From: a virus
DNA: 45,228 bases
Virus record (IMG/VR): IMGVR_UViG_3300015371_000075
Location: 1 to 45,228 of that record
Reading direction: 5' to 3' (one strand)
In this document: one piece after another, positions 3,872 through 42,833 of the stretch
Position numbering within the stretch: position 1 is the stretch's first letter
How the letters are laid out: every line of letters starts with the position of its first letter
Program-made: the position numbers and the translations under genes
The notes under the pieces: generated by a model
What the model saw: the letters and a program-made list of their open reading frames with translations, nothing else
What the model was told of the DNA's origin: nothing
Database searches by the model: none

Positions 3872-4277
3872 TGTCATCCTCCTTAATTGTTGTATTCCTT
3901 TCTGAATCCTCAATCGTCGGAAGATCCTTCATTTCCTCAGAGAATTTCTCCGATAGATGATTCCCTTCCATCTCAAGGAATTCATCGATCTGTTCCTCCC
4001 AGAGTTCATCTCCGACTTGAGAATGCCATTCGGAAACCAATTCTTCCAGGATTCCTGCAGGAGTCCTACCTTCCTCGAAATCAGGAAACGTAGGATTATT
4101 CTCTTTATCCTCCGTAGAAGCGTGAAGAGCTAACGCCGTAGCTGCAATCACAATTGTGTCCCGCATCCCGATCAGAATAGTCATCTTCTGTGCTCGACTA
4201 GTTTCTGGATCGTTCAGCGTTCCTGCAATTGCTGCTGCTGCTACAAACGGAGAATACCCGTCACTGTAATTAGGCAT
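3849..4277 (-). CDS. Hypothetical helical protein
   Basis: 142 aa from ATG 4277 in a TAATG overlap. An Ala-rich helical N-terminal half (SPFVAAAAIAGTLNDPETS) is followed by strongly acidic helices. The motif AQKMTILIGMRDTIVIAATALALHA is hydrophobic but interrupted by charges, so I do not call it a membrane segment. No family recognised. Confidence 0.7.
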   Translation of the reverse strand: MPNYSDGYSPFVAAAAIAGTLNDPETSRAQKMTILIGMRDTIVIAATALALHASTEDKENNPTFPDFEEGRTPAGILEELVSEWHSQVGDELWEEQIDEFLEMEGNHLSEKFSEEMKDLPTIEDSERNTTIKEDDSVPPEAA

Positions 4278-4414
4278 TAATCCTCCCCTAATATTTTGCA
4301 GTAGAAGTCCATCAGTCTTCCCTCTTGCTTCCCTGTAATCAACTGATTAATTAACAACGGAATCCCCACCAGGATTGTTAGGATAATCAGTCGGATGTAA
4401 AAGAAGATTCTCAC
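4277..4414 (-). CDS. Single-pass membrane peptide
   Basis: 45 aa from GTG 4414, which overlaps the upstream TGA in a GTGA junction. One hydrophobic helix (residues about 2-24, FFYIRLIILTILVGIPLLIN) is followed by a short polar tail. The coupled start is better supported than the longer upstream reading, which would run through the zinc-ribbon gene. Function unknown. Confidence 0.65.
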   Translation of the reverse strand: MRIFFYIRLIILTILVGIPLLINQLITGKQEGRLMDFYCKILGED

Positions 4415-4542
4415 CGCATCTTCTTTCCGGCTTTGATATCTTCGATTTGAGACTTGGAAAGAGCACCACATTTGGAACACTCTTTCTCTGAATTTAAGAC
4501 CATATATCCACAGTTAAGACAAACTCCATTTTTAACGGTCAT
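4411..4542 (-). CDS. Zinc-ribbon peptide coupled to the VWA gene
   Basis: 43 aa. The ATG at 4542 overlaps the stop of the VWA gene as ATGA, and its own TGA overlaps the next GTG. Four cysteines form two knuckles (CLNCG and CSKCG), a rubredoxin-like zinc ribbon. It ends in DIKAGKKMR, almost identical to the DIKAGKRMR end of the neighbouring VWA protein, and the DNA is similar too. This suggests a local tail duplication or a shared interaction tag. Probably works with the VWA/AAA module. Confidence 0.7.
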   Translation of the reverse strand: MTVKNGVCLNCGYMVLNSEKECSKCGALSKSQIEDIKAGKKMR

Positions 4543-5972
4543 CGCATGCGCTTTCCAGCCTTGATATCAGTCAACTGATGACCGTCATCGAAAGCTCTGT
4601 CGATTAGTCTCCCGCTCTTGATTAGGTCTTTGACATCCCCCACGCGCTCGATTCTACCCTTCCGAATCGCCTTCATAGCACGATGAATTGCTTCTGCGTT
4701 AGGAGTGCTTTCGTTTTGACAAGTAAGAAGCCCATCTGAAATCCAAAGCTTCTTCCCTTCCTTTCTTTGTGCAAGCCACTCCAACGCGGGAACGTCAACT
4801 ACATTAGCGTGACCCATTCCTTTATTCAGATCAGCAGAGAATCGCTTTTCCTCTGCGATTACCCGCAGATATCCGTAATTCCCTCCTGGAGAGGAATACA
4901 ACGCTATTACTGCAGCGGGGCACTGGTGGATAATTGCTTTTACATCTTCATAGGACAACCCCATGCTCCCTGAAACATCCACGAGGATTGCCGCTCCTGC
5001 TCTGCGCTTTCCTTTCCTGCGGAAAATGCGCATATCAGTCGCGTACCGATGCAATCCCACTGGAATAACCCCTTCGTCTGCTGCATTCATTTTCACAGAC
5101 GCAGTCAGCTTGAATTTGATCTGCTTATCAAGCTTAGGGGTTTCGATTTTCAGGGTTCCTGGGTCTCCGTAGTGTTTGTCGTAAGTGAAAGAGGACATCA
5201 ATCCCATTTCACGAGCCTCTTTTGCTTCCTCGTCAGTGATCCCTGTCATAACCCCATCCAAGTGTTGGTCATTACCACCCAACTGGAATTGCGAGGTTAG
5301 ATTCTGAGAATTTCCTAGGGTATCTTCACCCTGTCCCCCTCCGCCCTGCGGCGGCGGTGGCATTCCCGGAATCTCTTCCTTCAATCTCTCGATCAAAGTC
5401 TTAGCTGCATCGAGAGTCGTCTGGAAATCAGGGATTTCTTTATTCTTGTTACTTTCAGCGAAGAACTTCTCAGTGATTTCTTCAACCACTGGAAGAACTT
5501 TTCCTGTCTTGTCTGCTTTCCGGATCATCTCTCTGAGTTTCTGCTCGTTTCCAGTCCCCTGAAAAGCAATCATTGCTTCTGCCTGCCTTTGAGGATGGGA
5601 AAGATCAGGAACCTCAGAGAAAGCTTTTTCGATCTCTCTGTCTGTATACCTCTTTTGATTCGTGTCGATATCGACAACATTCAGAGCGGAATTAACTCTG
5701 TAATCCTCAACCGCCTGAATTGTTACGAATTCCTCGTCAGTTGAAATCTTCTTGATTTCGTTAGGAGTTGGAGAAATCTTAACGTGCATCGCAGTATGCG
5801 CTCTTACCTGCTCTGCACCCTTTCCCCAGAGAAACGGAACTACGAATTCCCTTTTATCGTGATCCACATACGCTGTATGCAAATCCCTGGAATTCCGAAC
5901 TTCCCAATCCTCTCCGTCAAGAATCTCCGGAAGAGGCCGGGAATATTCTCTTTCTCTTTGCCACCACTTCAT
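4539..5972 (-). CDS. VWA-domain (MIDAS) protein, partner of a MoxR-type AAA+ ATPase
   Basis: 477 aa. A VWA domain in the C-terminal third carries the MIDAS motif DVSGS at residues 332-336. A Pro/Gly-rich linker (about 203-216) precedes it, and a helical N-terminal part contains AVEDYRVN, as in CobT-like VWA proteins. Such proteins act with MoxR-type AAA+ ATPases (CobS/CobT, RavA/ViaA) in chaperone or metal-insertion reactions. The matching ATPase lies two genes upstream at 6518-7837. The target is unknown; a phage role in assembly or host remodelling is inference. The last residues (DIKAGKRMR) recur in the next gene. Confidence 0.85.
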   Translation of the reverse strand: MKWWQREREYSRPLPEILDGEDWEVRNSRDLHTAYVDHDKREFVVPFLWGKGAEQVRAHTAMHVKISPTPNEIKKISTDEEFVTIQAVEDYRVNSALNVVDIDTNQKRYTDREIEKAFSEVPDLSHPQRQAEAMIAFQGTGNEQKLREMIRKADKTGKVLPVVEEITEKFFAESNKNKEIPDFQTTLDAAKTLIERLKEEIPGMPPPPQGGGGQGEDTLGNSQNLTSQFQLGGNDQHLDGVMTGITDEEAKEAREMGLMSSFTYDKHYGDPGTLKIETPKLDKQIKFKLTASVKMNAADEGVIPVGLHRYATDMRIFRRKGKRRAGAAILVDVSGSMGLSYEDVKAIIHQCPAAVIALYSSPGGNYGYLRVIAEEKRFSADLNKGMGHANVVDVPALEWLAQRKEGKKLWISDGLLTCQNESTPNAEAIHRAMKAIRKGRIERVGDVKDLIKSGRLIDRAFDDGHQLTDIKAGKRMR

Positions 5973-6482
5973 CTAAGCTCCTTCGTCAGGATCAATGAGA
6001 ACTTCTTCATCTCTCCAGATTTCTTCTGTGTTTTGGAAGACCACAATCTTGACATCATTCTTATCGAAGATTGTGTAATGAGGAATTGCGTGATATCTTC
6101 CTGTATCCTTGCATTGTTGTTCAGCTAGATGGAGAGTCTTGAATTCTCTTACTTTTCTAGTAGAACTTTCTCCACTTCCATACCAGACATCTTCTTTATC
6201 TCCATCTGGTCTGTTAGAGACAAAGATTCTGTATGGAGCTTCGGCTATTACAGTTTCTTCTTCTCCCCATTCTTCTGCTAGTTCTGCTCTGAATGCTGCA
6301 TTTTTTCCGTTAAAGTTATATTCATAGAAGTTAAGAGGATCTCTAGATCCCCACCAAGAATCTTCTTGTGGCACACATATGCAGAGATTCTCAGAACTTT
6401 TCTCTATTACGTCTACACAACCCCAATCTTCTTTATCCGGTCTAATTCCGTCATCAGGAAGACGGAACATCCGAATTTTCAT
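5973..6482 (-). CDS. Hypothetical protein between the AAA+ and VWA genes
   Basis: 169 aa, with ATG 6482 preceded by TAGGA. Acidic and Trp-rich, apparently alpha/beta (EDWGCVDVIE, EDSWWGSRDPLNFYEY). It ends IDPDEGA next to the VWA start. It is the only gene between the ATPase and the VWA gene, so it may be part of the same complex. No family recognised. Confidence 0.75.
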   Translation of the reverse strand: MKIRMFRLPDDGIRPDKEDWGCVDVIEKSSENLCICVPQEDSWWGSRDPLNFYEYNFNGKNAAFRAELAEEWGEEETVIAEAPYRIFVSNRPDGDKEDVWYGSGESSTRKVREFKTLHLAEQQCKDTGRYHAIPHYTIFDKNDVKIVVFQNTEEIWRDEEVLIDPDEGA

Positions 6483-6517
6483 TCCTACTTCAAATTCTTG
6501 GAATGAGATTAGGGTTC

Positions 6518-7837
6518 CTATGCTTTTTTTGCTGTTCCCTTTCCTCCCGTAGCGCGAGAGATTTTGATTGTGTTCAAGATCGTCTCAGCCCTATCAGCGA
6601 ATACCGCAGTTGCCGCTGCTCTTTCATCACCAAGCTTCTCACGAAGCTCCGCGAAAGCATTCCAACCGCGAATGGAAACACTCCTAGAAGAATCTCCAGA
6701 AATACCCTTCTTCGCAATCGCATGAAGATCCGCAGGAAGAGCCTTTACTGCCTCTGGATTGACTTTGTCGATATGAATACGAACTGCAAAACGATCCCGC
6801 AAGGCATCCGGAAGGTCATCCGGCTCACCATTCATCGTTGCAATTACATGAAAGTCAGAATGCGGAAAAACAGTAACCGGCTCTCCGCCCTCTTCATACG
6901 GAAGGGTAATCCGCGCGATTCCCGGATCATCCAAAAGAGCATGGCAGAACGTCAGAGCATCACCCGATGCCTTATCGATCTCATTCAAGACGAGACGATA
7001 TCCCTTCTTGAATGCAGTAAGAGCAGGCCCATCAAACCAAACGAATTCCCCACCCTTAGGGACAAAGTGTCCCCTCAATTCCGCTGCAGGAGTTTCCTCT
7101 GTCAAGGTGATATTGCAAACCTTGTTCGGATTCCCGTGGAAGTTTGCAACAGTCGTCTTCCCTGTTCCAGGAGGCCCGAAAAGCAGAGTCAAACGAGAAT
7201 GCGGCAGAACTGCGTTAGTCAACTCCCAAATAGTCATACTTTCTGAATCCTCCTTATTGACTGAGAAATACCGGAAGTACGTTTTATCGAAGCTGTATTC
7301 ACCACCAGATGATCCCTTTTTTCTATCCCTAAAAACACAAACAGAAGAATGTGTTGTTCTGCTTACTTCCCACTCTTTTCCTCCAGCAAATCGGTCTTGA
7401 TAATGTGAATGGGATTTCTTAGCTTTGTCAGTAAGCTCAACAGTGATTACATCAACTGCTGAAATCTCTTCGATAGAAAGCTCAACCGGCTCAGTTTCAA
7501 TCTGAGGGCAAGTCCTTCTGTTATGTCCCTCTTTGCCACAATTACTGCAGCGATACATATTATCTAAATCCTCCCTTGTGTAAAAACAGTGAGACTGATA
7601 ACCGTTAACCGTTACTTCTGGATCAGATGCAAGAGCAGCCCAAACCCAGTAATTTTCTACTGGCTCTCCCGCTGAATGAGGATCTTTATGATTCTTAGGA
7701 CGGAAATCCCCTCCTACTTGGGTAACAATTAGTGTTTGTCCTTTTTGTTCCCAATCCGGAGCATCTGGATGATCCGTAAGCCAGATGTATTCTCCAACCT
7801 CGTAATCCTCTAGTTTTCTGTCTGTTTGCCAACCCAT
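6518..7837 (-). CDS. MoxR-type AAA+ ATPase with an N-terminal CCHC zinc knuckle
   Basis: 439 aa. Residues 97-110 are a retroviral-type zinc knuckle (CSNCGKEGHNRRTC, C-x2-C-x4-H-x4-C). The AAA+ domain has Walker A GPPGTGKTT at 221-229, a Walker B-like LVLNEID at 282-288 (Asn where Asp is common), sensor 1 ATMN near 333, and an arginine-finger region DALRDRF near 344-350. The order and the short AAA+ core fit the MoxR/CobS class. Residues 1-90 resemble a small SH3-like or beta domain. The start abuts the upstream stop (TAAATG). Its likely partner is the VWA protein at 4539-5972. A nucleic-acid-binding knuckle on a MoxR ATPase is unusual. Confidence 0.9.
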   Translation of the reverse strand: MGWQTDRKLEDYEVGEYIWLTDHPDAPDWEQKGQTLIVTQVGGDFRPKNHKDPHSAGEPVENYWVWAALASDPEVTVNGYQSHCFYTREDLDNMYRCSNCGKEGHNRRTCPQIETEPVELSIEEISAVDVITVELTDKAKKSHSHYQDRFAGGKEWEVSRTTHSSVCVFRDRKKGSSGGEYSFDKTYFRYFSVNKEDSESMTIWELTNAVLPHSRLTLLFGPPGTGKTTVANFHGNPNKVCNITLTEETPAAELRGHFVPKGGEFVWFDGPALTAFKKGYRLVLNEIDKASGDALTFCHALLDDPGIARITLPYEEGGEPVTVFPHSDFHVIATMNGEPDDLPDALRDRFAVRIHIDKVNPEAVKALPADLHAIAKKGISGDSSRSVSIRGWNAFAELREKLGDERAAATAVFADRAETILNTIKISRATGGKGTAKKA

Positions 7838-26853: not shown

Positions 26854-27229
26854 AACGGCTGAGTTAAGGAAGATGCTTCCGGTGGAATTCTCTACCCATG
26901 ACTTAGAGAGAATGACAGGCATTGAAGAGAGGATGTGGTGCCGGGTAAGGAACGTCGAGTATTTCAAGACCTCAGAAGAGACAGCAGATAGGCTGTTAAC
27001 AGCCCTTGGAACCCCACATCTATATCATCAGCTTGATTTTCACCCGTGGTCTTATTTCAAATCACCGCATGGTCTTACTGGGTATAAAAAGATGGGATGC
27101 CGTTGCAGTATTTGTGTGGCTGCTAACAAACAGGCCGCCTGGAGACACAGGAGGAAGAAAGGTGTTAAAATGAGAGGCAATGGCACCTATAAAACCCTGG
27201 TGGACAATCCTACCCCCTCTTCACGTTGA
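26825..27229 (+). CDS. HTH plus cysteine-motif protein, actinophage type
   Basis: 134 aa. The N-terminal part looks like an HTH (SVDLERMTGIEERMWCRV-like: HDLERMTGIEERMWCRVRN). The C-terminal HGLTGYKKMGCRCSICVAAN followed by RRKKG is a motif common in actinobacterial phage proteins. Supports an actinobacterial host. Probably DNA binding. Start overlaps the UDG gene. Confidence 0.7.
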   Translation: MEANLKLYCKTAELRKMLPVEFSTHDLERMTGIEERMWCRVRNVEYFKTSEETADRLLTALGTPHLYHQLDFHPWSYFKSPHGLTGYKKMGCRCSICVAANKQAAWRHRRKKGVKMRGNGTYKTLVDNPTPSSR

Positions 27230-27737
27230 GCTATCTCCTAATAGATCTGCGAGGAAAGCCGGAGTGCGTCTTGTCGTTGTACACGACCCTGAAGGCAATT
27301 ATGAAGGGACAGTGGCATTTATTGGACGACGAACCGCGCAGGTTTCTTATCATGTACTCGGAGATTTTGAATTCAAGCGAGTAACCCAATTCGTCCCTTG
27401 GGGCGAGAAAGCGTGGAGTTGTGCCGCATTTAACTCTTACTCTGACAATATCTCCATCGCGGGATTCAAAGGAAACTCGTGGAGCTATGCCGCACTTAAT
27501 CGTCTCGCTAGAGCGGTTGCTTTTAGACTCAATAAGCGGGGGCTACCAGCCACATTTATATCTGCGCCGGTCGCCTTTCCGCCGCCTAAAGGGTTCACCT
27601 TTCACAGTGAACTTGGTAGTAAAGGCGGGGGGCATACCGATCCGGGTCTAACTGGAGCGAAGAAGTGGTTCTTCATCAGCGCGGTGAAGTTCCACCGAAA
27701 AGTAGGTGGATTCCGGAAGGTTTGGGGAGTAGAGTAA
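27180..27737 (+). CDS. Endolysin: N-acetylmuramoyl-L-alanine amidase (Amidase_2)
   Basis: 185 aa. VVVHDPEG (His35), GFTFHSELG and GGHTDPG supply the two His and the Asp/His zinc site of Amidase_2. QVSYHVL and the WSYAALNRL helix also fit. No signal peptide and no separate cell-wall-binding domain. It cleaves the peptide from the glycan in peptidoglycan. It is the last gene of the rightward operon. Confidence 0.9.
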   Translation: MAPIKPWWTILPPLHVELSPNRSARKAGVRLVVVHDPEGNYEGTVAFIGRRTAQVSYHVLGDFEFKRVTQFVPWGEKAWSCAAFNSYSDNISIAGFKGNSWSYAALNRLARAVAFRLNKRGLPATFISAPVAFPPPKGFTFHSELGSKGGGHTDPGLTGAKKWFFISAVKFHRKVGGFRKVWGVE

Positions 27738-27738
27738 G

Positions 27739-28269
27739 TTAATTCAGATTAAAGGGAAACTTATCTTTAAGCATGTGTTCTTGAACCCTAGTAGGTCTAT
27801 GGATTCCCTGAAGAATTCTCAGTAGATCCTGAAACTCCTGTTGATTTCTCCACTCGTATTGTCCTCTAGCTCTCATGAATGGATTTCGTACATCTGAATT
27901 CATTCCTGAGTTTCTCATTAGATCCAAAAGAAACTCTTCTTCATAATCGCTTGGTCGTGCGGTAGCAGGATTTGCGTGAAAATCTGTCATCTCCCCACGA
28001 TGTTTACCAAAGGGGATTCTATTAAGAGCAGGCTTCTGAAAGAAATTAGGAAACTCCATTCTCCCACCAGGATTTTGAAGTCTTCTTATAGGGTGAGCAG
28101 CACCTCCTAATCCAAGGGCAGAAAGCAACCCTTGCCCTAGTCTGATTCCAGAGCGGTGAGTAGATTTAGTAACCCGCCGAGAGCGAGCAGCCCTAGCTGA
28201 AGTCTCTTTAGCCAGAGCTTCTTCGATGGAGACTTTCTTGCCCCTCGTTGCCTTCCTTGTGTCTCTCAT
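27739..28269 (-). CDS. Hypothetical basic protein, virion-associated by context
   Basis: 176 aa from ATG 28269 in an ATGA overlap with the hydrolase gene. Arg/Lys-rich N-terminus (TRKATRGKKVSIEEALAKE, then ARAARSRRVTKSTHRS) resembles the basic start of the 743-residue protein at 29879. C-terminal half is polar and Asn/Gln-rich. Possibly packaged with DNA. Confidence 0.65.
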   Translation of the reverse strand: MRDTRKATRGKKVSIEEALAKETSARAARSRRVTKSTHRSGIRLGQGLLSALGLGGAAHPIRRLQNPGGRMEFPNFFQKPALNRIPFGKHRGEMTDFHANPATARPSDYEEEFLLDLMRNSGMNSDVRNPFMRARGQYEWRNQQEFQDLLRILQGIHRPTRVQEHMLKDKFPFNLN

Positions 28270-29153
28270 TTCAGTCCTCCCGCAAGGATCTTGTAAAGAC
28301 GGGCCATAACCTGAGGCTTACCGGAGACATCAACAGCTTCTCCCAAACGCCTACCGTTATATCTCCCAGGGAAGGTTCTGTAATGGAAAGAGTTTTTGAC
28401 GTGAACTGGATCTACGGGGTCTACGTATGGGTTTTCAGAGACTCTTAAACCAAGCCTTCTAGCAAGTGCCAAGGCCCTCAAAACCTGTTGTGGGTTGTTA
28501 TAAGCGAAATGCAAATGATCTGAATGACCCCCAATAGGAGCGATTCTCTTCCCGTATTTAATCGCTCCAAGAGGGTCGTAGAATAGCTCTGCCGGGACTC
28601 CGTATCCCCCAGGGCCTCCGAGGGGCTGAGAAGGGCTTACAGCGCCTCCTAGAGGCATAGGGGCAGGTGGACGGAATACCGACATAGGCAGTTCCCCTCC
28701 TGCTAGGATTGCCTGTAGCAGGCCGGTGCTGGAGGGAGAACCTGCAACTGACTGGTTCGCCAGGAGGGGTTGGTCAGTAGCCCCTCCCCCTCCACGCTGG
28801 TAATACGCCAGAGCTTTAGCAATCTCAGCGCCAGGGTTAGCAGGTCTTTCAAATTGATTGACGATAGCCCTGATCGCTGCATCCCCTGATTTATTCCCTG
28901 CTACCCTTTTAATCTGTGACAGGGCATACAGAAGACCCGGTTTACTCCAAGCCCATGCCTGACGATTACCGCGAATATGCTGAGGAAAAGCGCCTCCGAC
29001 GTGAAGTTGGAAGGGGCCGAAAGAAGTACCTGAATCGCCAATACCACCTCCGAGGCCCTCTTGCGCGGCAACTGAGAGGACTGCCCTTGGGTCACGAATT
29101 CCGATTTGTCGGGCGAGTTGAAGAATTAGATTAGCTCGGTTATTCCGGGGCAT
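28266..29153 (-). CDS. Virion peptidoglycan hydrolase: transglycosylase-like plus M15-like domain in permuted order
   Basis: 295 aa from ATG 29153. Residues about 5-60 resemble a lytic transglycosylase (AVLSVAAQEGLG, GTSFGPFQLH). The C-terminal part has M15-type zinc motifs. Here the ELFYDP and GGHSDHLHF block (189-215) comes before the SFHYR...GEAVDVSG block (255-278), the reverse of the usual SxHxxGxAxD then HxDHxH order. It should degrade the wall during entry. Gly/Pro-rich linker between the domains. Shares its promoter palindrome with 29174. Confidence 0.75.
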   Translation of the reverse strand: MPRNNRANLILQLARQIGIRDPRAVLSVAAQEGLGGGIGDSGTSFGPFQLHVGGAFPQHIRGNRQAWAWSKPGLLYALSQIKRVAGNKSGDAAIRAIVNQFERPANPGAEIAKALAYYQRGGGGATDQPLLANQSVAGSPSSTGLLQAILAGGELPMSVFRPPAPMPLGGAVSPSQPLGGPGGYGVPAELFYDPLGAIKYGKRIAPIGGHSDHLHFAYNNPQQVLRALALARRLGLRVSENPYVDPVDPVHVKNSFHYRTFPGRYNGRRLGEAVDVSGKPQVMARLYKILAGGLK

Positions 29154-29156
29154 CAA

Positions 29157-29670: not shown

Positions 29671-29925
29671 ATGTCTGTCTACAAAGAACAGAATCGACTG
29701 GAGGCTCTTAACGCTGATATCGATATGCGTATGTGGGAGCTTGTAGTAGAGATTCTTAACTGCGAAGACCTAGATCATTCAGTTGTTCTTGCGTATATGC
29801 GCGCTGCTTACGGGAAGGGATACTCAGATGCCATTAATGACGAAGGTAAACTGATTAAGGATCATTACTTGAAGATTCCTAAAAACCCCCTGAGCGAGAG
29901 CGATACTTCCTACGACGCCGCTTAG
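29671..29925 (+). CDS. Small helical hypothetical protein
   Basis: 84 aa. Acidic helices with VVLAYMRAAYGKGYSDAIND, similar in style to early proteins such as 3306-3542. Convergent with the 743-residue gene; the last 47 nt overlap it. Confidence 0.65.
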   Translation: MSVYKEQNRLEALNADIDMRMWELVVEILNCEDLDHSVVLAYMRAAYGKGYSDAINDEGKLIKDHYLKIPKNPLSESDTSYDAA

Positions 29926-32110
29926 TACGACCGAATTTACCTTCACGCTTTGCCTGCTTGTTTAGCTCCTTATGTATAGGCATCCTAGGAATGAAACCAG
30001 GCCCCCAAAGTTCCTGATTAAGTGCATCTAGAAGATCACCCTTCTTGTAAGAGCGAAGGTGTGGACTCAACCCAGCAGCAGAAGTTACGGTTGAGGCCCA
30101 AGGAAGACCTCTCAGATAATCAAGAGAAGCAGCCACAATAGCTCTGCGCTGCCAGTCAGGCATACCCTTTCTAATAAGTGGGTATCCAGTCTGAATATCT
30201 TTACCCGTCTGCATTGCGGTAAGCAACTGAGGAAGTGGGCCGCTCTCCTGCAGGAGGTTAAGTCCAGGAATAGGCCCACCCAAACGGAAAGGCTGTGTAA
30301 TTTGTTTCCCGACATCAGCGGCAGGCTGAAGTGAATAGATATTTGCAGGGTTAAGAACTGCTGAGGTTCCCCTCTTAGCGTTAGGATCACCTGCCTGAGT
30401 AGGGATAAGATACTGCGCCCAGAACGGAAGATCACCAAGAAGTCTGTTCTGTTCCTTTTTCCCTTCTTTTCCTGCGGAAAGCAAAGCTGCAGAAGCAATT
30501 GAATGCTCTGAGGGGAAACGAACGCCCAGGCGCGTAAGAGCCTTAAACATTGGATAGAAGATCGGGATTTGTGTACGCATAAACTGGCGCTCTCCCTGGA
30601 AGATGCGGCCAAAGGCACCCATTTCCTCTTCAGCCCTTCGGAGGGGAACGAAGTATTTAGAAGTAACTCCCTTTACTTTGATGTCCTGAATTGCAGCCTG
30701 AATTTTCTCAGGAGAATCAAGGCCCATTCTGCGAAATTCATTAAAGGCAGAAAGCTTTCTGATGTGACTCTCAGGAATGTTTGCAGCATGGCCTACAGTT
30801 CCCTGGATACCACGCTTCTCAAAAGACTCAGCAAGTCTTACTCTTTTTCCAGTGATCCTCTTTCCACGCAATTTCTTGGCTGCAATCCCAGCCATGCGTC
30901 CAGATTCAAGACCTTCAGCAATAGATCCAGCCTGTGCTTCACCAAGAGCCTTACGAAACATCTCAGCTTCCTTAGGATGTTTAATTGCGTCCTTAGTTGA
31001 CTTCACTGTCCGAATAGGATGGGTACCGAACAACTGCCCCGTCTGAACCATGTTCTGCAAGTAATATCTTGGCCTAGACCACATACCCATGCGCAAGAGG
31101 GCCATAGGAATCCCGATAGTCTTACCAATAGCTCCAGAAGAAGCTTCAATAGCCTGTTCAAGTTCGCCAGGTAGACGGCTCTCATTCTTAGAGATGTTTT
31201 CAAGGCGGCGGGAAGTCCGCTTGTTAATACCAATTCCCATATTCTCTGCAAAACGCTCTCGCGTTCTGATCTCCTTAAGGAGTTCTCTCTGAGCAGATTC
31301 CTTGCTTCGTACTTTTTCTCGACCCTTGCGAAGAGTTCTGAAGAGAGGATTAGGAGAAGTAGGTACATCAAGATAACCACCCTTAAGACGCCTGTTGTAA
31401 GTAGGCTGCTTCATAGCCTCTCGTCCAAATGCTCGTGCAGCCTGACGTGCGTTATATGCCTTATTGAGGTTTGCTCCACCCTTTGTTCTCTTAATAAATG
31501 ATTTAGTGTTAGTTCTCTCAGCCTGAAGGCGTCCGTACTTCTGTTCAAAGGCCGTTACTTCCTTTCGTGTTACTCCGTATCTCTTAAGCTGAGTTGGAGA
31601 CATCTTTTTTCCCATACCACGCTCTGCCTCATGGACTGCAGCGTGCATAGGATTAACTTTCCCCTTCTGAAGATCACGAGCAGCCTTCAAAGCTCTCGAT
31701 CCCGCGCCTAGACGCGCTGCAGCGCCACCGCCTGCAGAGAGCAAGGCGAGGACATCAAAAATAGGAGCAGAAAGATCCCCTCCTTTACCTACGTTTCTCC
31801 AGGCGTTGTATTCGCCAATGGCGATGTTCTTACCAAGCTTTGTAGTGCGCCTAAACGGGCGTCTAAGAGGATGCCTTCCTAGATCGTAAGTGTCCTTCCC
31901 TACCGCCCTTCCTGTCATATAGGCAGCAGTAGGAATTCCTGTAATTCCGTGGTACAGACCCTTTCCAGTACCGCTTACATACTTTCCGATCTTTCCAAAG
32001 CCCTTAGCCTGTGGAGCGCGCTTAGAACGGATACGGCTCCTAGCAGCCCTACGAGAGGTCTGTTGGGCGATTCTTTGTTCCCTAGCGATCCTGGGGTCGA
32101 TGACCGGCAT
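29879..32110 (-). CDS. Large basic internal-virion or ejection-type protein
   Basis: 743 aa. Strongly basic at both ends (TSRRAARSRIRSKRAPQAKG; end GRTKRRRRKYRSRSGGF), with long helical stretches and a few hydrophobic, glycine-rich segments (APIFDVLALLSAGGGAAA; IGKTIGIPMALLRMG). Position beside nozzle, fibre and hydrolase genes suggests a protein carried in the capsid and ejected with DNA, as T7 gp16-class proteins are. No enzyme motif seen. Leaderless ATG with the box at 32117-32122. Confidence 0.6.
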   Translation of the reverse strand: MPVIDPRIAREQRIAQQTSRRAARSRIRSKRAPQAKGFGKIGKYVSGTGKGLYHGITGIPTAAYMTGRAVGKDTYDLGRHPLRRPFRRTTKLGKNIAIGEYNAWRNVGKGGDLSAPIFDVLALLSAGGGAAARLGAGSRALKAARDLQKGKVNPMHAAVHEAERGMGKKMSPTQLKRYGVTRKEVTAFEQKYGRLQAERTNTKSFIKRTKGGANLNKAYNARQAARAFGREAMKQPTYNRRLKGGYLDVPTSPNPLFRTLRKGREKVRSKESAQRELLKEIRTRERFAENMGIGINKRTSRRLENISKNESRLPGELEQAIEASSGAIGKTIGIPMALLRMGMWSRPRYYLQNMVQTGQLFGTHPIRTVKSTKDAIKHPKEAEMFRKALGEAQAGSIAEGLESGRMAGIAAKKLRGKRITGKRVRLAESFEKRGIQGTVGHAANIPESHIRKLSAFNEFRRMGLDSPEKIQAAIQDIKVKGVTSKYFVPLRRAEEEMGAFGRIFQGERQFMRTQIPIFYPMFKALTRLGVRFPSEHSIASAALLSAGKEGKKEQNRLLGDLPFWAQYLIPTQAGDPNAKRGTSAVLNPANIYSLQPAADVGKQITQPFRLGGPIPGLNLLQESGPLPQLLTAMQTGKDIQTGYPLIRKGMPDWQRRAIVAASLDYLRGLPWASTVTSAAGLSPHLRSYKKGDLLDALNQELWGPGFIPRMPIHKELNKQAKREGKFGRTKRRRRKYRSRSGGF

Positions 32111-40825: not shown

Positions 40826-41192
40826 ACCAAGGCCCGTAAATTCCAAGCCGCTTACGCGATTTATCCATCCACTCTAGGCGTTCCTGGAGATCGTCAGCGA
40901 GATCGGTGTTGATTCTATTTCTCCGAATAGCGTTAGCGACAGTGGCTTGTTTGATAGCTTCACGAATGTCACCTTCTTGCCGCCTGACCACGCCCACGAT
41001 ATCGAGTGAAAGAGGCAGAGGGCCGTCAACTGTTCTCCAATGTACGCAGGTATGGGGTTCCTCCCCGAGACCTGCAGGATATCTAACAGCGTAATAAACA
41101 TACTGACCATCGCGGTCATAGAGTTTATCGAGGAAGAGTTCGGGATCTACTGATTTTAGCTCTTCGTTAACCTGTTTTTCCTGGAGTTCCAT
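40803..41192 (-). CDS. Hypothetical protein
   Basis: 129 aa from ATG 41192, inside the end of the epimerase gene. Alpha/beta (YYAVRYPAGLGEEPHTCVHW), with an Arg-rich helix (ANAIRRNRINTDLADDLQER). Presumably follows the sugar genes. No family recognised. Confidence 0.65.
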   Translation of the reverse strand: MELQEKQVNEELKSVDPELFLDKLYDRDGQYVYYAVRYPAGLGEEPHTCVHWRTVDGPLPLSLDIVGVVRRQEGDIREAIKQATVANAIRRNRINTDLADDLQERLEWMDKSRKRLGIYGPWSNRANLP

Positions 41193-42003
41193 TCTGCTTA
41201 TACCATTCTACAGTTTTGCTCAACCCGTCATACAGATTAGTAGGACACCTGTAATTAGTGATTAGTTTTCTCCGAGAAATACCGTCGATAACCCTCTCAG
41301 GGATGTTAACGACTTCAAGCTTTTGGGTAAGGACATCTTGAAGGACTGTTACCAGATCATTCACTGAAACCTCAGCCCCTCTGGAGATATTCTCAGTCCT
41401 GTTATCCATACTCAGGGGGCCTAAAAGGATGTTGATTACGTCATCTACATAGGTATAGTCCCTGGTCTGATGCCCGTCACCAATTACGGTAATAGGACTA
41501 CCTTCAAGCGCCTGAGTGATGAATTTGCCGATGACCCCACAATAGGGGTTATCTGTGGTCTGGAAGGGGCCGTATACGTTACTCAGACGAACAATGGAAT
41601 AGTTACAACCAGAGGTCTTTACAAAGTGTTCTCCAGCAAGCTTGGCAATCGCGTAGTCTGTCTTGGGGTTTATCTCGGCGTCCACAGGGGTTGCGATATG
41701 CTGAGATTGACCGTATACTGATGCAGTGGAGGTATAGACGAGATGCGCCCCATAGTACTTAGCCTGCATCGCAGCGTACCTGGCTCCTTCGATATTGACC
41801 TTAAGATTCGCGGCCGGTTTGATGACCGCTTCCTCCTGATTCACACAAGCGAGGTGGTAGATCACGTCACAGCGCGGGAAGCTACCGAACATATCCGTCC
41901 CGCTCTTAGTGTCCATCCCGTACACCTCGTCACCCGCAGCCTCCAATCTCTTGCAGAGATTCCTGCCGATAAAACCTTCTGATCCTGTGACTACTACTTT
42001 CAC
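41167..42003 (-). CDS. NAD-dependent nucleotide-sugar epimerase/dehydratase
   Basis: 278 aa from GTG 42003, coupled GTGA to the glycosyltransferase. Rossmann GSEGFIGRNL, STASVYG and the catalytic Y-A-I-A-K place it in the extended SDR group of UDP-glucose/galactose epimerases. RDYTYVDDV also fits. Supplies a sugar nucleotide, probably for the neighbouring transferase. Confidence 0.9.
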   Translation of the reverse strand: MKVVVTGSEGFIGRNLCKRLEAAGDEVYGMDTKSGTDMFGSFPRCDVIYHLACVNQEEAVIKPAANLKVNIEGARYAAMQAKYYGAHLVYTSTASVYGQSQHIATPVDAEINPKTDYAIAKLAGEHFVKTSGCNYSIVRLSNVYGPFQTTDNPYCGVIGKFITQALEGSPITVIGDGHQTRDYTYVDDVINILLGPLSMDNRTENISRGAEVSVNDLVTVLQDVLTQKLEVVNIPERVIDGISRRKLITNYRCPTNLYDGLSKTVEWYKQNGTPGKTG

Positions 42004-42833
42004 AGTGTTAAGAAGAATCCTCCCTTGTTCCCGTGATCGTACTGGCAACCCCATTCATGGGTGTCAGTTCTCTCAGGCCAGATGACGGTATTAATGATGT
42101 GCCCTAGGGACATATCCAGATCCGCGTGGATCTTAAAACCCGCCTGTTGGGCGCGTCTACAGAAATCCAAGTCCTCACCCCAGTGTCCTACTCCGAGGCG
42201 GAACCAGGGCGGCTCAAGAGCTTCTAGGACACGTCTGCGGACGATCATTCCTGCCGATCCTGCCCCATCTACCTCAATCAGCCCTCCATCGGGGAAAGCA
42301 TTCAGATTCAGAGGGTAGAGAACTTTATCTTCGTTCTCGTCGTAAGCGTATTTAGAGAGGTCAACTCCAGGCTTCATCTCTCCGTACTTATAAAGAACGG
42401 GAGTCGGGGGGAAATCTCTCTTGAAACAGACAGGGGCAATGATGTCCAGATCATCCCGGTACATCAATGCTAGGAGTTTTAGGGCTAGATTAGGTGGAAA
42501 AGCGTGGTCATCACCCATGAACATAATCCAATCTTCCTGCGGGAGCATCATTGAACAAGCTCTGTTGCAGGAATCTACGACGTAACACCCCGTATGGAAT
42601 CCATAACGGGAACCGTAGGGGAGAATCAGACTCATAGTTGAGGCGTGGAAGATCGTATACCGGGCGGATTCGTTAGCGATAATGGCGACTACACCACCAG
42701 GGAGCTTTTCGCAAAGTTCATTCAGGCGTGGATCGTTGAAGTCAAACTGCTCATGGGTTCTAGGCCCTAGAGCGGCTACCTCATGCGGAATGGCTTTCTT
42801 ACTGGGATGCTGTCCTTTTTTATTTCTCGCCAC
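42000..42833 (-). CDS. Glycosyltransferase (GT-A type)
   Basis: 277 aa. MGDDHAFPP is the metal-binding DxD region. GHWGEDLDFCRRAQQAGF is the conserved W-x-x-E-D-x-x-F-C/RR motif of GT2-like transferases. IIANESARYTI resembles the N-terminal strand. Target may be the capsid, a fibre or the host surface. Near-leaderless GTG start. Confidence 0.85.
   Translation of the reverse strand: MARNKKGQHPSKKAIPHEVAALGPRTHEQFDFNDPRLNELCEKLPGGVVAIIANESARYTIFHASTMSLILPYGSRYGFHTGCYVVDSCNRACSMMLPQEDWIMFMGDDHAFPPNLALKLLALMYRDDLDIIAPVCFKRDFPPTPVLYKYGEMKPGVDLSKYAYDENEDKVLYPLNLNAFPDGGLIEVDGAGSAGMIVRRRVLEALEPPWFRLGVGHWGEDLDFCRRAQQAGFKIHADLDMSLGHIINTVIWPERTDTHEWGCQYDHGNKGGFFLTL

Follow-up and report, generated by a model that had tools for sequence, protein, structure and literature searches.

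We examined a 45,228-base virus record (IMG/VR IMGVR_UViG_3300015371_000075, positions 1 to 45,228; hereafter the window), in which the minus strand at 28266–29153 holds an uninterrupted frame (295 codons and a stop) for a predicted two-domain peptidoglycan hydrolase. Residues are numbered from the ATG at 29153; an alternative TTG start at 29156 gives a 296-residue product (28266–29156, minus strand). The AF2 model and VIA-align comparisons delimit an N-terminal lysozyme/transglycosylase-like domain at approximately residues 1–123 (28785–29153), followed by a low-complexity linker at approximately residues 124–186 (28597–28784), with pLDDT below 50 for residues 123–182. The remainder matches a profile of canonical-order relatives with the LAS metallopeptidase fold, which is common to lysostaphin, VanX-type enzymes, and Sonic hedgehog. 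The match falls into two parts: block B, which in LAS domains usually forms the C-terminal half (28503–28595), and block A, usually the N-terminal half (28278–28487). Between them lies a new junction, YNNPQ (approximately residues 218–222; 28488–28502), where the model shows a strand at 214–217 and then a helix at 221–233. Directly upstream and in the same direction is the gene for a 743-residue protein (29879–32110, minus strand), and an Amidase_2 endolysin is encoded on the opposite strand at 27180–27737.

Block B contains ELFYDP, beginning at E189, and GGHSDHLH at residues 208–215 (H210, D212, H213, and H215). From N to C terminus, block A consists of a helix, GLRVSEN, H251, SFHY (from S255, including H257), an insert, GEAVDVSG (with GEAVD ending at D275), and a further helix. 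These residue positions bear out the initial annotation, which had placed ELFYDP and HSDHLH ahead of SFHY and GEAVDVSG. Scanning the window with the degenerate DNA pattern DHxH–gap–SxH–gap–GxAxD gave one match, against none in 100 dinucleotide shuffles. That the order exceeds chance follows mainly from profile tests in both directions and from the recurrence of the same module in 16 further contigs.

For the first direction, a profile was built from 52 canonical modules, near-copies included, out of 54 loci listed; the other two failed the motif expression. The permuted test set comprised the window protein and 14 others, leaving out L134 (a duplicate module), L139 (cut), and L195 (on the contig of L206). 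In all 15 proteins the canonical-only profile gave two matches with the halves swapped, model positions of approximately 46–99 coming first and approximately 8–69 second. Every half scored between iE 2.4e-13 and 2.5e-5, whereas none of 315 decoys, made by shuffling or reversal, did better than E 0.46. In the window protein, profile positions 67–99 fall at residues 187–218 (block B, iE 6.3e-12) and positions 13–59 at residues 228–290 (block A, iE 2.8e-6). When the profile was applied to 63 canonical sequences (the 54 loci and nine named-phage modules), 61 gave a single in-order match across both blocks; the remaining two gave one match each that fell short of both blocks by the limits set. In the second direction, a permuted profile matched 15/15 permuted proteins end to end. 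Against the canonical set it produced 30 two-part matches, every one swapped, and 33 one-part matches, with none in the permuted order. Among solved structures, the canonical profile found hedgehog (E near 8e-4), VldE (0.34), and 1lbu (0.76), and the permuted profile matched VldE weakly, in two swapped pieces (whole-sequence E 0.016, best piece iE 0.61). LAS zinc peptidases carry the H..D motif before HxH; in the window protein and the 14 others this order is reversed, so we file the module as a permuted LAS variant, not as an ordinary member.

Besides the window, the permuted module is present in 16 IMG/VR contigs, one of which (L139) is cut at the contig end; the other 15 have open frames with both halves readable. 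Both halves have homologues, as the canonical-profile matches attest, and the swapped arrangement has relatives of its own. It is not the normal one for the family. Block orders were read from printed translations, and of the 45 loci that a search with the permuted module retrieved, 32 were canonical and 13 fell in the permuted group (12 readable; L139 was assigned by block A alone). Canonical order was also read in 9/9 genome contigs matched by the permuted module, at 10 of 15 loci from a further search, and, by eye, in 10/10 named-phage modules (L002–L005, L007, and L185–L189), none of which carried the permuted form. The five permuted loci of that further search comprised L194, L195, and three contigs already known; another search returned 15 permuted among 25 loci, the new ones being L206, on the contig of L195, and L207. 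Pattern scans yielded 72 and 51 stretches, including seven permuted members, the remainder being chance or unrelated; a shorter-spacing H-x6-D pattern recovered only three known permuted contigs and five chance or canonical stretches. L006 had matched by chance within hypothetical genes, and no module was recognized in L190; both were dropped.

Among bacteria, the permuted profile was searched against four chosen genomes and then against 396 and 282 genomes sampled from two phyla. Matches were found in 4/396 and 2/282 of the sampled genomes, three of these six being among the four chosen. All five bacterial genomes with two-part matches were canonical, with order taken from coordinates, and two others matched in one part only; across the chosen and sampled genomes, no two-part match had the permuted order. 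Tblastn of the module against phage records matched 27 with the window module as query, 21 with L131, 41 with L141, and 23 with L140, none covering 80% of the query, and the whole window protein found nothing in the same type of search. Single-protein scans of viral contigs found no relative. The whole protein had one PHROGs match (E 0.5, to a tape measure protein), and its phmmer matches among PDB sequences were unrelated, at E 0.8 or worse. It has no match at the Pfam M15 cut-off, below which the canonical and permuted members tested also stay. Profile libraries can miss such enzymes: neither Pfam nor NCBIfam has a model that matches this one.

Six residues of the window module (E189, H210, H213, H215, H257, and D275) are invariant in 12/12 permuted modules, and their counterparts are invariant in 25 canonical modules. 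D212 is kept in 11 of the 12 and is Asn in L142. The closest characterized comparison is VldE (Spr1875), whose C-terminal MT3 domain is a LAS L,D-endopeptidase (9flm, 9flh). H257, D275, and H215 align with its zinc ligands H301, D308, and H375, and H210, D212, and H213 with H370, D372, and H373. All six of these VldE residues, which its activity requires (PMC11667670), have window counterparts, although the two halves are swapped and, by eye, R294 of VldE has no arginine counterpart in the window. Between the H and the D lie x17 in the window module and x6 in L141; in M23 enzymes, too, the spacing is described as variable (PMC9662197). The initial annotation had likened the module to phage D,D-peptidases. 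The M15-like, LAS part of that assignment stands; the nearest group supported by our comparisons is Mt3/VldE, and a D,D-peptidase identity is not clear.

Structure prediction gave a consistent picture. With 12 sequences, AF2 modeled the window protein at a mean pLDDT of 69.8 and a pTM of 0.45. Within the module, ten-residue blocks over 191–240 and 271–290 reached pLDDT 87–95, and those over 241–270 reached 65–76, with the block holding H257 (251–260) averaging only 65. The predicted elements are strands at 189–217, a helix at 221–233, a strand at 237–241, strands at 260–277, and a helix at 280–291. As a canonical control, L152 was modeled with 25 sequences at a mean pLDDT of 91.6 and showed an H-E-E-H-E-E topology (helix 3–17, strands 20–24 and 48–52, helix 55–72, strands 73–77 and 100–104). 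The window module is predicted to have the same elements in rotated order (strands-H-strands-H). The L152 model aligned with VldE 9flm (Z 9.8, rmsd 2.9, 93 aligned), with the M15 enzyme 1lbu (Z 6.7, rmsd 3.1, 85 aligned), and with hedgehog (Z 5.8) and ChiX (Z 5.7); two haloacid dehalogenase-like chains at Z 7.2 rank between VldE and 1lbu. The earlier claim depended on an M15 core, and such a core is recognizable in the canonical relatives: the LAS structures that their model matches include an M15 enzyme. For the permuted model, neither Foldseek nor VIA-align, both sequential, returned a LAS structure among PDB rows, and Foldseek gave no match at E<=0.001 in PDB or BFVD. This outcome is expected when a sequential aligner meets a rotated chain and is not positive proof of permutation. 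The best VIA-align rows for the permuted module, microcompartment shell proteins at Z ~5, were read as generic likeness and set aside.

The proposed fusion behind a transglycosylase-like domain is supported by the N-terminal model, which VIA-align matched to 3csq (Z 7.9, rmsd 3.4, 112 aligned), 3csr (Z 7.8), the transglycosylase MltE (6gi3, Z 7.1), and goose lysozyme (1gbs, Z 6.8). The 3csq and 3csr scores lie just below the tool's "clear" level, and mid-domain pLDDT is 53–58. E32 is a candidate catalytic acid. Elsewhere, the permuted module has various glycan-cleaving domains as fusion partners: it lies behind SLT domains in L141 (Pfam E 2e-22) and L194 (1.1e-26), follows a weakly Glucosaminidase-like domain, below the Pfam cut-off, in L137 and L138, and lies inside an 846-residue frame (4195–6732) with further sequence on both sides in L131. 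The modules of L141 and L143 are 98% identical, but their N-terminal regions are visibly different; near-identical modules behind unrelated-looking N-terminal regions suggest recent domain exchange. The same observation extends to L191 and L192.

We consider it very likely that the window protein is a two-domain cell-wall hydrolase in which the peptidase half is a LAS domain of the Mt3/VldE type that has undergone circular permutation. The circular permutation of an M15-like zinc peptidase, as first suggested by the initial annotation, is supported by the profile tests in both directions and by the rotated predicted topology. That uncultured phages carry a naturally permuted LAS domain is well supported at the sequence level and consistent with prediction. 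In the proposed arrangement, the part with ELFYDP and the HxDHxH motif (zinc and base), which usually closes the LAS chain, comes first. A short turn would link block B to the helix that normally opens the domain, and the old connection, from the helix after DVSG to ELFYDP, would be open and provide the new chain ends. Going by its homology with VldE, the domain would bind zinc through H257, D275, and H215, use H210 as general base, and cut a stem-peptide or cross-link amide. The N-terminal domain is similar to the phi29 gp13 lysozyme domain and would probably cleave glycan strands.

Judged from its gene neighborhood, the hydrolase is most likely a virion enzyme that breaches the wall so that DNA can enter, since it lies beside virion-type genes and apart from the separate Amidase_2 endolysin. 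The neighborhood of hydrolase and 743-residue protein is common to the window and four other phage contigs: homologues of the hydrolase over most of its length occur in L132–L136, and L132–L135 (the tblastn matches of the 743-residue protein) also encode homologues of that protein and of a 446-residue protein upstream, in the same direction as the hydrolase. The 743-residue protein itself is arginine/lysine-rich, is kept in the four related contigs, and has no Pfam or PHROGs match. The Amidase_2-type gene converges on this structural block. We nevertheless give some weight to the hydrolase being a lysis enzyme, an alternative that concerns its role and leaves the permutation untouched. The gene is near the amidase gene, and fusions of glycosidase and peptidase occur in endolysins too. 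Against this, the window already encodes an endolysin on the other strand, the hydrolase follows the 743-residue protein in the structural block in all five contigs, and in named phages most of the canonical homologues belong to tape measure proteins. Fusion partners and setting together make an entry role likelier, and we regard a lysis role as unlikely.

The remaining alternatives question the permutation itself. Sequence order alone would be compatible with two leftover half-domains, block B from one module and block A from another, that a deletion joined and that either work solely as a domain-swapped dimer or have no function. However, both halves and their catalytic residues are conserved across the 12 permuted modules, of which the other 11 are 41–62% identical to that of the window; conservation over this range indicates that selection keeps a working unit. 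The module is also modeled confidently as a monomer outside one loop, and the junction spans only a few residues, which together make this origin very improbable. We give still less credence to the swapped order being the old, ordinary state of a LAS subfamily from which the usual order derived. Our unrooted tree does not separate gain from loss, but VldE, 1lbu, hedgehog, and ChiX all align with the canonical-order model, the bacterial two-part matches are all of the usual order, and no more than a small set of phage contigs shows the permuted form. An assembly artifact or chance motif match has virtually no standing, given the readable open frames in 15 further contigs and the empty shuffles of the DNA pattern.

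How often the permutation arose was approached with a tree of 65 rows and 80 columns, from which identical rows and the one-block rows L007, L168, L169, L185, and L187 had been dropped. The best trees require three changes of order and put L140 among canonical rows, and 0/200 bootstrap trees have a single change. An AU test on 15 versus 48 rows, with the long rows C_L186 and C_L172 left out, did not reject a single permuted clade (p 0.12). We tentatively propose, with more doubt than conviction, that this is the first known natural LAS permutation, that it arose at least twice (in the main group and in the L140 lineage), each time with the chain opened at one and the same place, between ELFYDP and the helix that follows DVSG, and that the rotated module is exchanged whole between unrelated glycan-cleaving domains. 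The canonical proteins L150, L151, and L181 stop just after DHVHxA, where the permuted proteins continue into the block A helix.

Several known systems share features with the window protein. Motif 3 (mt3) of the mycobacteriophage TM4 tape measure protein is reported to be muralytic and to aid in infecting stationary cells (PMC1796659), and the MT3 domain of VldE takes its name from it (PMC11667670). Like the window module, mt3 is a phage-encoded muralytic motif; unlike it, mt3 is embedded in a tape measure protein and, by analogy through VldE, would have the canonical order. The Streptomyces albus Zn D,D-peptidase (1lbu, M15), with which the canonical relatives align, differs from the window module in order and has low sequence similarity to it. 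The protein phi29 gp13 (3csq), which the N-terminal model of the window protein resembles, joins a lysozyme-like N domain to a LAS-superfamily endopeptidase and is a tail-knob hydrolase and tail-tip entry enzyme (PMC9662197); its peptidase, however, is M23, whereas that of the window is homologous to the Mt3/VldE group. Permuted NlpC/P60 proteins (YaeF/LRAT-type) are an earlier example of circular permutation in a wall-peptidase fold (PMC6403190), but these are cysteine peptidases of another fold. In the open-licence literature searched, which included PMC12419801, PMC3314691, PMC6403190, PMC11667670, PMC1796659, and PMC9662197, we found no earlier report of a permuted LAS peptidase.

Natural circular permutations of enzymes reveal which chain connections of a fold are dispensable, and this apparently unreported case belongs to a superfamily with members as different as wall-cutting enzymes and hedgehog. 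Because canonical and permuted relatives are close in sequence, the tolerance of the LAS fold for new ends is directly testable. Elsewhere in the window, neighboring genes at 4539–5972 and 6518–7837 carry DVSGSM and GPPGTGKT motifs, and by eye we take them to encode a VWA protein and an AAA ATPase, a MoxR-like pair. Two genes at 41167–42833, presumably sugar-nucleotide epimerase-like and glycosyltransferase-like from their motifs by eye, adjoin the major head protein gene.
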